The translations under genes and the position numbers were made by a program. Positions 17,379 to 42,839 of a DNA stretch of 64,000 nt are shown here, in pieces; position 1 is the first letter of the stretch; each line of letters starts with the position of its first letter. A model generated the notes under the pieces. The model was given only the letters and a program-made list of their open reading frames with translations. It searched no databases and was not told the DNA's origin. The stretch is from positions 32,745-96,744 of IMG/VR virus record IMGVR_UViG_3300030419_008098, one strand, 5' to 3'. Source of the stretch: a virus.

Positions 17379-18410
17379 CTACGAGAGAAGCGAGTAATCG
17401 TGCTGGTACATTTTTTTTACCAACCCTTTAAAGTCTGTATGACGCTCCCAACCAAGTTCTTTTTCCGCTAAAGAAGGATCCCCGCAAAGCTCATGCACCT
17501 CGGCGGGTCGATAGAATTTAGGGTTTATTTTAAAGATAAGTTGGCCTGACGGGGAGTGATAAAAACATTCATGCTCCTTATTTCCCCGGGAATAATATTC
17601 GATACCGGCTACAGCTAAAGATTCTTCGAGAAATTCTCTTACACTATGCATTTCCCCACTTGCTAAAACATAATTTTTAGGTTGATCTTGATTTAACATC
17701 AACCATACGCCACCCATAAAGTCTTCTGCGTCACTCCAATCACGTTGAGCCTCTAAATTTCCTAGTGACAAAACTGGGATTTCGGTAGAATTATTTAACG
17801 CAATCTTGATTTTAGCCACTCCATCACTAATCTTGCGGGTAACAAAATCTAAACCGCGCCGAGTACCTTCATGATTGAAAAGCCATCCCTGTACCGCATA
17901 AAGACCATAGGACTCCCTATAAACTCTAACTAAATGTCTAGCGGCACATTTCGCCGCACCATAAGGAGACTGGGGCAACAAGGGGTGCTCTTCGGATTGG
18001 GGCGAATGAATTACATCACCAAACTCCTCCGAAGACCCCGCATTATAAAAACGACAATCTGGAACAAAACGGCGTACAGATTCCAGAATATGTAAGACCG
18101 CATCAGCATCAGTGCCCCAGGTTTGAATGGGATATTTCCAGCTCCCCGCCACAAAAGACTGAGCTGCAAAGTTTATAAAGTAATCAGGCTCAATGTCAAT
18201 GATAACATCTCTGATGCTGTGAGCATCCATAAGATCCATATCAATCAATTCAAAACGTTCTTCATTTTCTAAGTGAAGGATGTTTTCATGGTTTTTAACG
18301 CTAAGCCTACGAATGGCTCCATAAATTTTATGAGAAGTCTTTTTGAGTAGGTAATCCACCATGTGGCTCCCATCCTGGCCGGTAACCCCGGTAATGATTA
18401 TTTTTTTCAT
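17379..18410 (-). CDS. gmd: GDP-mannose 4,6-dehydratase
   Basis: 343 residues of the extended short-chain dehydrogenase fold. It has a Gly-rich NADP motif (ITGVTGQDGSHM, about 5-16), the catalytic region SSEEFG, the YGAAK pair (Tyr and Lys), and the GMD signatures FNHEGTRRGLDFVTRKI and GNLEAQRDW. It converts GDP-mannose to GDP-4-keto-6-deoxymannose, precursor of GDP-fucose, rhamnose, perosamine, colitose and branched deoxysugars. No Fcl/WcaG-type epimerase-reductase is seen; the SDR-cupin-methyltransferase fusion at 39409-42003 is the best candidate for the next step. It opens the glycan island on this strand. Confidence 0.95.
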   Translation of the reverse strand: MKKIIITGVTGQDGSHMVDYLLKKTSHKIYGAIRRLSVKNHENILHLENEERFELIDMDLMDAHSIRDVIIDIEPDYFINFAAQSFVAGSWKYPIQTWGTDADAVLHILESVRRFVPDCRFYNAGSSEEFGDVIHSPQSEEHPLLPQSPYGAAKCAARHLVRVYRESYGLYAVQGWLFNHEGTRRGLDFVTRKISDGVAKIKIALNNSTEIPVLSLGNLEAQRDWSDAEDFMGGVWLMLNQDQPKNYVLASGEMHSVREFLEESLAVAGIEYYSRGNKEHECFYHSPSGQLIFKINPKFYRPAEVHELCGDPSLAEKELGWERHTDFKGLVKKMYQHDYSLLS

Positions 18411-25199: not shown

Positions 25200-25973
25200 T
25201 TAGGAATTAGGGATTAAGCAAGTAGGTGGCGGAAGTAATTTATGTTTAGTATTAAGATGGCGAGCCGTATAAAGATCTAGGACTTCTTTTTGGCGTAGAG
25301 AGAGATTGGAGTAGTCTCCCTTGTGGATATCATAATAATTCAATGCCCACTCTAGTTCATCGTAAGAAGCGCCTATTTGGTCTTCGTCGGTCCTATTATC
25401 ATCCCATAGGCCATCAGTGGGGGGAGCAGCAAGAATATCTTCCAAAATATCCAATTCTTTTGCCAGCGAGTAAACTTGGTTTTTGGTTAAATCCGCAATA
25501 GGACTTAAGTCCACCCCCCCATCCCCATACTTGGTAAAAAAACCAATTCCATAATCTTCAACTTTATTTCCCGTACCTAAAACTAAATAGTTGTGGGTGT
25601 TGGCTATACTATAAATAGCGGTCATCCTTAAGCGCGAGGCGGTATTAGCTAAAGCTAATTTATTTACACAAGAAGGGAAGGCCTCCACTAACGAATTAAA
25701 AGAGTCTGTCAGATCAATCGTGTAAGGTTTAATGTTGTTGAATTTCTCTTCGAGCCAATCAATATGATCCAGGGATCGGCTGTGCTGCGAAGCCTCTTGA
25801 TTGATGGGTAAACTTAAGGGGATAACAGGTAGGTTGGTAAGAGCGCCTAAGGTGGAAGTTAGGGCAGAATCCACGCCTCCAGAAACCCCCACTACAAAGC
25901 CCTTGGAGCCGCTTTTATTAGCGTAATTAATTAGCCAGTCCGTAATATGTTTGGTGATTTCAGAATGATTCAT
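25200..25973 (-). CDS. nadE: Ammonia-dependent NAD synthetase
   Basis: 257 residues of the PP-loop ATP pyrophosphatase fold. It has GVSGGVDSAL (about 29-38), the NaAD-binding segment GTGNKVEDYGIGFFTKYGDG, and DLSPIADLTK with the following PPTDGLWDDNRTDEDQIG. All are NadE hallmarks. It amidates nicotinic acid adenine dinucleotide to NAD using ammonia; there is no glutaminase domain. It lies inside the sugar island, next to NAD-using dehydrogenases. Two roles are possible: supplying NAD for those enzymes, or refilling NAD after host NAD-depleting defences. A sugar amidotransferase role (as for WbpG-type PP-loop proteins) fits less well because the NaAD motifs are intact. Confidence 0.92.
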   Translation of the reverse strand: MNHSEITKHITDWLINYANKSGSKGFVVGVSGGVDSALTSTLGALTNLPVIPLSLPINQEASQHSRSLDHIDWLEEKFNNIKPYTIDLTDSFNSLVEAFPSCVNKLALANTASRLRMTAIYSIANTHNYLVLGTGNKVEDYGIGFFTKYGDGGVDLSPIADLTKNQVYSLAKELDILEDILAAPPTDGLWDDNRTDEDQIGASYDELEWALNYYDIHKGDYSNLSLRQKEVLDLYTARHLNTKHKLLPPPTCLIPNS

Positions 25974-39399: not shown

Positions 39400-39421
39400 A
39401 CCCCTTTTTTATTTAAGGGGT
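39400..39421. terminator. Hairpin between convergent operons
   Basis: A 7-bp stem, ACCCCTT/AAGGGGT, with an AT loop lies in the gap between two converging genes and overlaps the stop codon of the minus-strand gene. No T-run follows on either strand, so termination would be weak or factor dependent. Confidence 0.4.
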
Positions 39422-42003
39422 AAACAATCGTTATTGGCCAAATCCTTTATGGAAATGAATTTTATCCCCTTGTTCAGGAGATCTTGGTTATTTTCTTTGA
39501 TGACCTCAAAAAAGTTCCACGCCATAACGATAATAACGTCGGGGGGCTCTTTAGAAACCATATCCTTGGAATAAATGGGGATTTTGACGCCGGGGATATA
39601 TTTGTTATGTTTCAAAGGGTTATCTTCAATAATGTAAGAGATCTCCTCTGAAGTGATGCCGTAATAATTTAAAGCGGTGGTCGCTTTGGCCGGCGCTCCA
39701 TAACCCGCTAGGACGAGATTTTGGTTTTTTAGTTTTTTTAAGTTCAATAAAACATTCTCCTTACACCGTTTCACCCGTTCTGCAAAATCCCGGTAGGTGG
39801 AGTAATTCTTTATCCCAAACTTGTCTTCCTCTGATAAAAACTCTTCTACCGCAGCAGAAATCTCCCTCTCACCTCGTTTCACGTATAGACGGAGTGACCC
39901 CCCGTGAGTGTCAATATGCTCCACATTAATAATAGTAGAAGAAAGATTATTAAAAAAATTATTTAAAGAAGTTACCGTCCAGTAATTTACGTGCTCATGA
40001 TATATATTATCAAAGGTGAGATCTTTTATTGTATCAACAAGGTATTGAACTTCTATAATAAAAACCCCATCATCTTTTAAAACATCAAAAGCCGCACAGG
40101 CTATCTCCGTTAGATTATCTGCATGGGCAAAAACATTGGAAGCCGTTATGAGATCCGCGTGGCCGTACTGAGCTGTGATGCGTCCACTAAGGTCTTTTGT
40201 AAAATATTCATTAATGGTATTTACCCCGGCCTCATTAGCTATTTGAGCTACATTAGTAGCCGGCTCTATACCCAGAGTTCTTATCCCTTTCTTTTGTAAG
40301 GGTTTTAAGGCAATACCATCATTAGAACCAATGTCCACCACAAAGGAGTTGTGATTTAAAGTGAATTTTTTTATGTAGTATTCGGAGGCTCTTTCAAAAT
40401 GTTCCCTAAAGCTTTGAGTTGTAGAGGAAACATAGAGATAGTGATCGAACATTTTAGAAGAAGGAACCGAATAAGATAATTGACAATTGTGACTCTCGGG
40501 ACAATATACTAACTCCAGAGGGAATAACTCCTCGGGTTCTGAAGGGGAATCGAGTAGGTTGTTAGCTAAAGGAGAAAACCCTAAAGATAGAACAGGTTTA
40601 AGGTGTGCGCTTCCGCTCACACGACAAAAGCGGGAGTAATTAGCCAATAAAGAATCTTTTAAAACTTCATCGACAAGGGGGTACGCTAAGGTATGGGTGA
40701 CCCCATAATTATCATGCTCCCTCTCCCCTCTCACTAAATTTAAAAACACTGAATCTTCCAAAAAAATCATGGTGTGGGCCACATGAGGTTTGATGATAGC
40801 TATATCTCCGGGGTTGATTATTTGAGTATGTAAAGATGAACGGGGGTTGAGTAAGTCCTTTACAACGCTAATGTATCTCCCTTTTAACAAAAGGCATTTT
40901 TGTTCTTGGATGGGGTGAAAGTGATTAGCTCTTATCGTCCCTCTTTTAGACTCTATATATCCAATTAAATTAATTGGTTCTGTGAGCTCGTAGTTAGTGA
41001 TAAACCCTCGTTCATCTACGTAGGTATTGGCGCCTTGCTGAGTATACTCTAGGGCCGGAGGTATAGGGTGAGGGCTCCAGTTGGTAACCATCTCTTCAAT
41101 GCATCCCTGGATACTGTAAAGAAACTCAAAACCGGTCTTAAGTAGTTTCTTGTTAGAGATAGTGTAACCTAGATTAGGAATCTCATCTTCTGTTTCTGTT
41201 AGAGTAACGGAGGGAGCAAACTCCTGGCACATTAAGGCTACCTCCTTTACTGTCATAGATTCCAGTGCACAATGAAAAATCTCTTGTCTAATTTCATCAT
41301 GTTGCTCCATAAATTGAAAACATCTCGCAACATCAATAAGAGGAACTAAACTTTTTAACTGCACCCCGCCTGAAAAAAGCTTTATTTGCCCTCCTTGCGA
41401 TGCAATTTTAGCAAAAAGGTTGGGCATTATATTAATCCGCATATTATCTCCTGAATAGCCGCACACGGAAGCCAATCGTACTATTACATAGTTTTTGCCC
41501 GAGTTCTTTAAATCTTCTTCAGACTGAACCTTACCAGCACTATAGGTTAAGACAGGAGTAGGCTGGATCTCCTCGGAGATATTCTCCATAGTGTCCTCAA
41601 ACCCCTCATAAACAACATGGGTGGATGGAAAAATAATCTTACAATCCGCTGAAGTAAGCTCTATTATATTCCTGGTTCCATCAACTCCCGTTTCTCGAAT
41701 AGAGGAATCTAGTTCTTCATTGGATTCGGTGGCGGTATAAGCCACATCGGTAACCCCCGCCAAATGTATGACTACATCGGCATTTTGGAGGGGACCTCTT
41801 ATTGTGGATACATCTAAAATTCCCGCCTGGATATATTTAAAACCCCACTTCCTGAGTTGCGTAACTAAGGCAGAGGAAAACCTGCGGTCTATAACTGTTA
41901 TATCGTACTTCCACGAAAGACCTGAATACAACTTGCACAGTTCAGATCCTATATACCCCAATCCTCCGGTTATTACTATTTTCTTTTTAGGTTTTAAATT
42001 CAT
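39409..42003 (-). CDS. Trifunctional fusion: SDR epimerase/reductase, cupin, C-methyltransferase
   Basis: 864 residues, three sugar-modifying enzymes in one chain. Residues 1-310 are a short-chain dehydrogenase: ITGGLGYIGSEL, then FPSTHVVYEG and YSAGK (Tyr and Lys). About 318-440 is a cupin with the metal motif RANHFHPIQEQKCLLLKG, as in sugar epimerases and isomerases. About 455-864 is a sugar C-methyltransferase: an N-terminal zinc-type segment (here with fewer Cys than usual), SAM motif VVDIGSNDGIALKPL, EVQYLVDTIKD, NIYHEHVNYW, and the C-terminal GYGAPAKATTALNYYG domain. It could turn a 4-keto-6-deoxy sugar from Gmd into a branched C-methyl sugar; this is inference. It is coupled by ATGA to the upstream gene. 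Confidence 0.88.
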   Translation of the reverse strand: MNLKPKKKIVITGGLGYIGSELCKLYSGLSWKYDITVIDRRFSSALVTQLRKWGFKYIQAGILDVSTIRGPLQNADVVIHLAGVTDVAYTATESNEELDSSIRETGVDGTRNIIELTSADCKIIFPSTHVVYEGFEDTMENISEEIQPTPVLTYSAGKVQSEEDLKNSGKNYVIVRLASVCGYSGDNMRINIMPNLFAKIASQGGQIKLFSGGVQLKSLVPLIDVARCFQFMEQHDEIRQEIFHCALESMTVKEVALMCQEFAPSVTLTETEDEIPNLGYTISNKKLLKTGFEFLYSIQGCIEEMVTNWSPHPIPPALEYTQQGANTYVDERGFITNYELTEPINLIGYIESKRGTIRANHFHPIQEQKCLLLKGRYISVVKDLLNPRSSLHTQIINPGDIAIIKPHVAHTMIFLEDSVFLNLVRGEREHDNYGVTHTLAYPLVDEVLKDSLLANYSRFCRVSGSAHLKPVLSLGFSPLANNLLDSPSEPEELFPLELVYCPESHNCQLSYSVPSSKMFDHYLYVSSTTQSFREHFERASEYYIKKFTLNHNSFVVDIGSNDGIALKPLQKKGIRTLGIEPATNVAQIANEAGVNTINEYFTKDLSGRITAQYGHADLITASNVFAHADNLTEIACAAFDVLKDDGVFIIEVQYLVDTIKDLTFDNIYHEHVNYWTVTSLNNFFNNLSSTIINVEHIDTHGGSLRLYVKRGEREISAAVEEFLSEEDKFGIKNYSTYRDFAERVKRCKENVLLNLKKLKNQNLVLAGYGAPAKATTALNYYGITSEEISYIIEDNPLKHNKYIPGVKIPIYSKDMVSKEPPDVIIVMAWNFFEVIKENNQDLLNKGIKFISIKDLANNDCLPLK

Positions 42004-42839
42004 GATGTAAGTTCAGGGCCGCTAAAATAATCAAAACGTTCCGGATCACCGTACTCGGCTACCTTATGGTCTCCGGGGAAAATAATAGACCCATGGGTTT
42101 TATATAAACCAATGATTTGAGAGAAGCCCGAAATACTGGCTATGCATATATCGCTCTCAATGCAGTTTTGTAATTGCGTTAAAGTTCTTTCTGCATTCTT
42201 TTTGCTTGGGAAATAATTAAAACGATTTTTATATTTAGAAAAAAGCCGGTTTATATTCACCTTCTCTCCCTTGTCGTTGATATAGCCATCAGCCCAATCC
42301 CCATCGGAATAAATATTAATGAAGAAATCTTTTAAGTTTTGTTTTTGAATTATGTAATCCAGTACTCTTAAATAATACTCATCAGGGCGCAATCTAGTTT
42401 TAAAGGCACTCCCCTCATAATGAGGCTCCATCGCTACATCTCCGCGCCGAATCGTTACAGTGATATTAGTTACTTGCGGTTTTAAATGATTTTCAAGGAT
42501 CAACCTGCGATATTTATAATGATCCATAAAGTAATTTCTTGTCTTTTCAAAAGATTCCAAAGTGGGTTTTCCCCCTTTTAATTGGTTATAGGAATGTTCA
42601 TCGCATAAAGAGGGAAAATTAGAACGTGCATGATTGCGTGCAGTAGAAAAGTCGTTCAAGCCCAAAAAGTTTTCCACCATCCCATTGTTGCCCAAACCAT
42701 GGCCCAAGGACATTAAGGGAGGTAAAAAAACAAGATTCTGGGATAAGGCAATATTAAGGCCGTAATTATAAGAAACCAAGGTATGCCCTAGGCCCGCGCC
42801 GCGTATTATATTGTCATAGATTAGATACTTGGTATTCAT
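42000..42839 (-). CDS. Fucosyltransferase-like protein (IRRGD motif)
   Basis: 279 residues. GLGHTLVSYNYGLNIALSQN near the N-terminus and VTIRRGDVAMEPH in the middle fit the G.GN...A and HxRRGD motifs of fucosyltransferase-like GT-B enzymes (GT11/GT23/GT65 superfamily). IASISGFSQIIGLYKTHGS is the later donor-site strand. A GDP-sugar donor is likely. It is only distantly similar to the protein at 27868-28704. It overlaps the sulfotransferase gene by 26 bases. Confidence 0.68.
   Translation of the reverse strand: MNTKYLIYDNIIRGAGLGHTLVSYNYGLNIALSQNLVFLPPLMSLGHGLGNNGMVENFLGLNDFSTARNHARSNFPSLCDEHSYNQLKGGKPTLESFEKTRNYFMDHYKYRRLILENHLKPQVTNITVTIRRGDVAMEPHYEGSAFKTRLRPDEYYLRVLDYIIQKQNLKDFFINIYSDGDWADGYINDKGEKVNINRLFSKYKNRFNYFPSKKNAERTLTQLQNCIESDICIASISGFSQIIGLYKTHGSIIFPGDHKVAEYGDPERFDYFSGPELTS

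Follow-up and report, generated by a model that had tools for sequence, protein, structure and literature searches.

A phage-encoded protein combining SDR, cupin and sugar C-methyltransferase domains, proposed to build a C-methyl-branched sugar nucleotide

A single open reading frame in a stretch of viral DNA of 64,000 nucleotides (the window, positions 32745-96744 of a 96,744-base (96.7-kb) IMG/VR virus record) appeared in a first-pass annotation to encode an SDR, a cupin and a C-methyltransferase in one protein of 864 residues, raising the questions of whether such a chain is genuine and what sugar it would make. The identification of the record as a phage is supported by its phage-type genes, which include ribonucleotide reductase subunits, a UvsX-like recombinase, a DnaB-like helicase, a sigma factor, a clamp loader, a DNA polymerase, an exonuclease and a tail-terminator match. 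The fusion gene (39409..42003, minus strand) runs uninterrupted from an ATG at 42003 to a stop at 39409-39411, and its product consists of an SDR domain (residues 1-310; 41074..42003), a cupin domain (residues 311-457; 40633..41073) and a sugar C-methyltransferase (residues 458-864; 39412..40632), all three encoded on the minus strand. Structure prediction of the full chain gave a pTM of 0.63.

The gene lies in a large glycan island, which also holds GT61, GT47-like and GT9-like glycosyltransferases and two sulfotransferase-like genes. On the same record is a Gmd (GDP-mannose 4,6-dehydratase)-like gene (17379..18410, minus strand), a possible source of a 4-keto-6-deoxy substrate. Directly upstream of the fusion, with a 4-base overlap, is a gene for a 279-aa protein (42000..42839, minus strand) for which a Pfam search returned no match; an IRRGD stretch in its product, noticed by eye only, presumably resembles stretches known from fucosyltransferase-like enzymes. 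Elsewhere in the island, an NAD-synthase-like or ATP-pyrophosphatase-like protein (25200-25973; function assigned by eye) has relatives in loci L011, L016 and L022, and outside the window on the same record (L039:1824-2572) nucleotidyltransferase-like and mannose-6-phosphate-isomerase-like cupin genes adjoin, again as judged by eye.

Relatives were collected by pattern scans and tblastn, yielding 27 viral and 10 genome contigs. All three domains occur in one ORF in 19 other IMG/VR viral contigs (among them two nearly identical pairs and one contig cut at its start) and in seven bacterial contigs, and for 22 of these the alignment with the 864-residue protein spans the full length, at 48-65% identity. 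A sequencing error joining separate frames, or an assembly artefact, is thereby excluded. The 642-kb phage LR756502 also has a triple-domain protein in one ORF, and the bacterial carriers include single-cell or metagenome assemblies of SAR86 and Candidatus Actinomarina. The triple fusion is thus common to many aquatic viruses and a few marine bacteria. Our literature search found no paper describing an SDR-cupin-methyltransferase triple fusion, in agreement with the first-pass annotation; a search on noviose genes returned no hits.

The SDR domain is recognised by Pfam as Epimerase (PF01370; residues 9-242, E 1e-22). In an alignment of 23 full-length copies, every domain keeps its likely catalytic residues without variation; in the SDR these are probably T128, Y154 and K158, and the nucleotide-binding glycines G13, G16 and G19 are invariant as well. 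So is D39 at the end of beta-2, which suggests the use of NAD(H). The nearest solved relative, both by sequence (E 2e-19, ~25% identity) and by fold (TM 0.83-0.89 over the target), is Cj1427, the GDP-D-glycero-D-manno-heptose C4-dehydrogenase of Campylobacter jejuni, with NAD-epimerases next; NADPH ketoreductases are more distant. Cj1427 is an NAD-dependent enzyme with tightly bound NADH that is recycled by alpha-ketoglutarate (PMC10680097). From these similarities, the phage SDR may act last, as a C4 reductase, or may oxidise C4 at the outset and reduce it later. A 4,6-dehydratase role is unlikely, as the STHVVYEG stretch, inspected by eye with knowledge of the family, has none of the acidic residues expected in a dehydratase motif.

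The middle domain is less obvious, reaching only sub-threshold matches in Pfam when searched alone (Cupin_2, E 0.015; Polysacc_synt_C, E 0.016), and a narrow family profile reached CapF at no better than E 0.07. A broadened profile, built from the family plus nine stand-alone bacterial relatives and run against the PDB, matched QdtA (E 3.6e-6 over positions 15-121), the RmlC-like 2b9u (E 8e-6) and Cap5F (CapF; E 1.8e-4), along with oxalate decarboxylase cupins. The AlphaFold model is rich in beta-strands (mean pLDDT 88), and a Foldseek search with it retrieved QdtA, RmlC and ChmJ at E about 1e-6 to 1e-7. Residues R358, H361, H363, G375, H410, R428 and Y433 are invariant even when the stand-alone bacterial relatives are included. 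The broadened profile, predicted structure and fold search together confirm that the domain is a cupin. At ~20% identity, it does not reach the curated family-level cut-off for either the QdtA/FdtA ketoisomerases or the RmlC epimerases, and its profile and fold similarities place it between 3,4-ketoisomerases and 3(,5)-epimerases, so that it may catalyse either reaction. The original proposal is supported as to a sugar-acting cupin, but epimerisation is less secure than first stated.

The C-terminal module is clear in Pfam, with Methyltransf_13 (residues 460-519, E 3e-14), the SAM domain Methyltransf_23 (549-685) and Methyltransf_14 (699-850, E 8e-47) in order and all above curated cut-offs, as in the TylC3/TcaB9 family. 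The best solved relatives, MtmC, KijD1 and TcaB9 (TM 0.90-0.94 over the target, about 31% identity), are all sugar C3-methyltransferases acting beside a C4 ketone; the wider family, whose members add methyl groups adjacent to a ketone, also includes C5-enzymes such as NovU. Alignment maps the TcaB9 active-site residues Y76, H181, Y222, E224 and H225 to Y522, H627, Y668, E670 and H671, given a two-residue offset between chain index and TcaB9 numbering that was deduced from motif spacing. The last three belong to the catalytic motif YHEH (residues 668-671; 39991..40002, minus strand), and all five are kept in 42 of 42 methyltransferase sequences compared, which supports the assignment as a C-methyltransferase. 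By analogy with the solved relatives, C3 would be the carbon methylated. A putative four-cysteine zinc site, a common structural feature of the family that is not needed for the Pfam domain match, is incomplete in the window copy (C460, S463, C501, S504), whereas all four cysteines are kept in 36 of the 42 sequences. Cysteines 463 and 504 are lost together in six copies (the window, L002, L003, L004, L015 and L030), three of which have additionally lost C460. Membership in the TylC3/TcaB9 family holds, zinc site excepted, and the exception lies within a clade of otherwise typical members.

The fusion is not the only arrangement in which these domains occur in viruses and marine bacteria. SDR-cupin and methyltransferase are two genes with a 4-base overlap in L021; SDR and cupin-methyltransferase lie in different frames in L018, of which L017 has an intact near-copy; cupin-methyltransferase is found without the SDR in Pelagibacteraceae (L036 and L037); and the methyltransferase stands alone in L023, L024 and L027. 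A quick methyltransferase tree, with SH-aLRT support only, many weak forks and midpoint rooting only, separates all fusions from the stand-alone bacterial genes at a fully supported split, and nests the viral methyltransferase-only copies among the fusions. This topology suggests that the fusion arose once, long ago, and that loss or swapping followed. One Flammeovirgaceae MAG contig (L033) may be misbinned, as its neighbouring GT2-like gene is common to the Actinomarina loci L032 and L034.

Several of these loci have features of their own. An 1124-aa version (L016:9995-13369) carries a fourth, C-terminal domain, an FkbM-type methyltransferase (PF05050). In the Pelagibacteraceae loci (L036:9983-15754 and L037:9977-15785), the cupin-methyltransferase is clustered with a DegT aminotransferase, a formyltransferase-like protein and an ArnA/UXS-like SDR, which suggests a formamido C-methyl sugar. 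A fusion of an RmlD-like SDR with a GT2 glycosyltransferase (L018:5411-6781, with relatives in L011, L017 and L022) adjoins an RfbH-like PLP enzyme in which histidine replaces the usual lysine. RfbH-like proteins of this kind, with the motif FYPAHH, are found close to the SDR-cupin-methyltransferase fusion in six viral loci.

In bacteria, the unfused parts are found close together. The cupin is present in ten of 399 Pseudomonadota genomes, one of which carries the SAR86 fusion; in the remaining genomes it is a separate gene adjoining a methyltransferase of the same family (9/9), with the gene order SDR-cupin-methyltransferase seen once (L055). In an Alphaproteobacteria sample the methyltransferase again adjoins most cupin matches, and in an Actinomycetota sample the cupin was found in the starting Actinomarina genome only. 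This linkage of separate copies is evidence for a common pathway of cupin and methyltransferase. Other neighbours are aminotransferases or a UDP-xylose-synthase/LegB-type SDR, and weaker cupin relatives (L072-L074) adjoin Gmd-like genes, a hint of a GDP-linked substrate. An analogous row on a Desulfolutivibrio plasmid comprises rfbF, rfbG, an RmlC-type cupin, a methyltransferase, an acyltransferase and an SDR, its cupin being an ordinary RmlC-like protein outside the subfamily of the fusion.

The likely sugar nucleotide was addressed through the genes that accompany the fusion. Gmd-like genes (scoring above 180 bits) are present on 9 of 19 fusion-bearing viral records, a set that includes the split copies L018 and L021. 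They were not found on seven of the twelve such records of at least 50 kb, nor on the four longest (128-194 kb). Gmd is above its curated cut-off in 6/6 SAG or MAG genomes tested, as against 6/14 control genomes. Genes of the GT11 fucosyltransferase family, whose characterised members use GDP-fucose, occur on 10 of the 19 viral records and in 0/14 control genomes, and fifteen of the 19 records have Gmd or GT11. For RfbG (CDP-glucose dehydratase), no record has a match above cut-off, on which ground a CDP-glucose route in the phage was rejected, despite the RfbH-like proteins near the fusion. These counts weakly favour a donor that is probably GDP-activated. The first-pass annotation had relied on Gmd in the same region as a source of substrate; it is indeed on the same record, but its distribution among the relatives shows that it is not an obligate partner, and where it is missing from the longest contigs the substrate may come from the host, or the ketone may be made by the SDR itself.

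From the observed domain content, conservation of catalytic residues, recurrence and linkage of separate genes in bacteria, we infer a pathway in which the nucleotide, the methylated carbon, the direction of the SDR, the order of steps and the biological use are all provisional. The reading that we lean towards, with modest confidence, is a single-chain phage enzyme by which an NDP-4-keto-6-deoxyhexose is converted to a C-methyl-branched sugar nucleotide, with the SDR reducing C4. The substrate, most likely GDP-4-keto-6-deoxymannose, would be supplied by the phage Gmd-like protein or by the host; the cupin would epimerise or isomerise the ketosugar next to the ketone; the methyltransferase would methylate, with SAM as donor, a carbon adjacent to the ketone, most likely C3; and the SDR would then reduce C4 to give a branched 6-deoxyhexose donor, from which an island glycosyltransferase would transfer the branched sugar to a glycan on the surface of host or virion. 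The branched product first proposed is retained, with its 3-C position a matter of analogy, and so is the SDR activity, whereas reduction is less secure given a nearest relative that oxidises C4. That relative, D39, the missing Gmd genes and the two replaced zinc cysteines are the points that count against the favoured pathway, the last of them despite an intact methyltransferase catalytic site in the window copy.

The first three of these points also support a rival reading, a redox-neutral cycle, in which an SDR with bound NAD+ would oxidise C4 of a plain NDP-hexose or NDP-heptose, the cupin and methyltransferase would act, and the same SDR would re-reduce the ketone, all on one polypeptide and with no need for a 4,6-dehydratase. 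Cj1427 with its tightly bound cofactor, the NAD-epimerases that oxidise C4 transiently and the four longest contigs, which have neither Gmd nor CDP-glucose dehydratase above cut-off, all speak for such a cycle. An identity of about 25%, however, does not fix the direction of an SDR, the contigs may be incomplete or their ketosugar supplied by the host, and Gmd accompanies half of the viral records and every SAG or MAG genome tested. Since a separate-gene cluster has a dedicated dehydratase and so supplies its own ketosugar, we favour C4 reduction and consider the redox-neutral cycle unlikely. Somewhat less probable again is a cupin with 3,4-ketoisomerase activity like that of QdtA/FdtA, which would put the methyl group on another carbon (e.g. 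C4 or C2) and have the SDR act on C3. QdtA is the best sugar-isomerase profile match, many of the top Foldseek ranks are QdtA and other 3,4-ketoisomerases, and the invariant H361 and H363 resemble the HxH pair mutated in structures 2pae/2pak/2pam; yet RmlC-like and 3'-epimerase structures score about equally, and the solved methyltransferase relatives are uniformly C3-enzymes. The correlated cysteine losses in the window copy and five relatives might also be read as a sign that one or more domains are inactive scaffolds in a partly degenerate chain, which is very improbable in view of the invariance of the likely catalytic residues in the three domains and a methyltransferase site intact in 42 of 42 sequences. 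Returning to the favoured C4-reducing enzyme, we regard the fusion protein as genuine, conserved and plausible, its parts ordinary and their combination new.

Several known systems resemble the fusion in part. The TylC3/TcaB9/KijD1/MtmC C3-methyltransferases (PF08421-PF13489-PF08484) are alike in the whole C-terminal module, its fold and five active-site residues; the phage module differs in being fused behind SDR and cupin and, in the window copy, in having lost two of four putative zinc cysteines. CapF (Cap5F) of Staphylococcus aureus, cited at the outset as a known SDR-cupin fusion, likewise has an N-terminal SDR followed by a sugar cupin in one chain and carries out two successive reactions on a 4-keto sugar nucleotide, as predicted for the phage protein. 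The phage protein differs in its weak cupin similarity, an SDR nearer to Cj1427 and the extra methyltransferase, and lies outside the CapF family: against the NCBIfam equivalog NF047837 (CapF/WbcJ, cut-off 500) the cupin scores 11 bits, and the whole protein is not listed. CapF/WbcJ also has zinc in its cupin and an NADPH-dependent reduction, whereas D39 of the phage SDR suggests NAD(H) instead. CapF is thus an architectural parallel. Cj1427, the best SDR match, differs in standing alone and in being recycled by alpha-ketoglutarate, and the QdtA/FdtA and RmlC/ChmJ enzymes share the cupin fold and a conserved histidine region with a phage cupin that is below Pfam cut-offs. A parallel in logic is the proposed route to virenose (6-deoxy-3-C-methylhexose) in Coxiella burnetii LPS, itself an in silico prediction, with Gmd, a 3-C-methyltransferase and a 4-ketoreductase/epimerase as separate genes (PMC3539893).

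The branched sugar is probably destined for surface polysaccharides, where it may change the host surface or decorate the virion; a review of jumbo phages proposes that such clusters alter the glycans of the host surface as a defence against rival phages (PMC7824862). If active, the protein would combine in one chain the work of three enzymes of deoxysugar pathways, making it a compact biocatalyst for branched sugars, and would show that phages make C-methyl sugars. As it is encoded by a single gene, this is directly testable. That aquatic phages, SAR86 and Actinomarina have the same architecture suggests that viruses and hosts exchange genes for surface glycans, a matter relevant to the ways in which phages modify the host surface.
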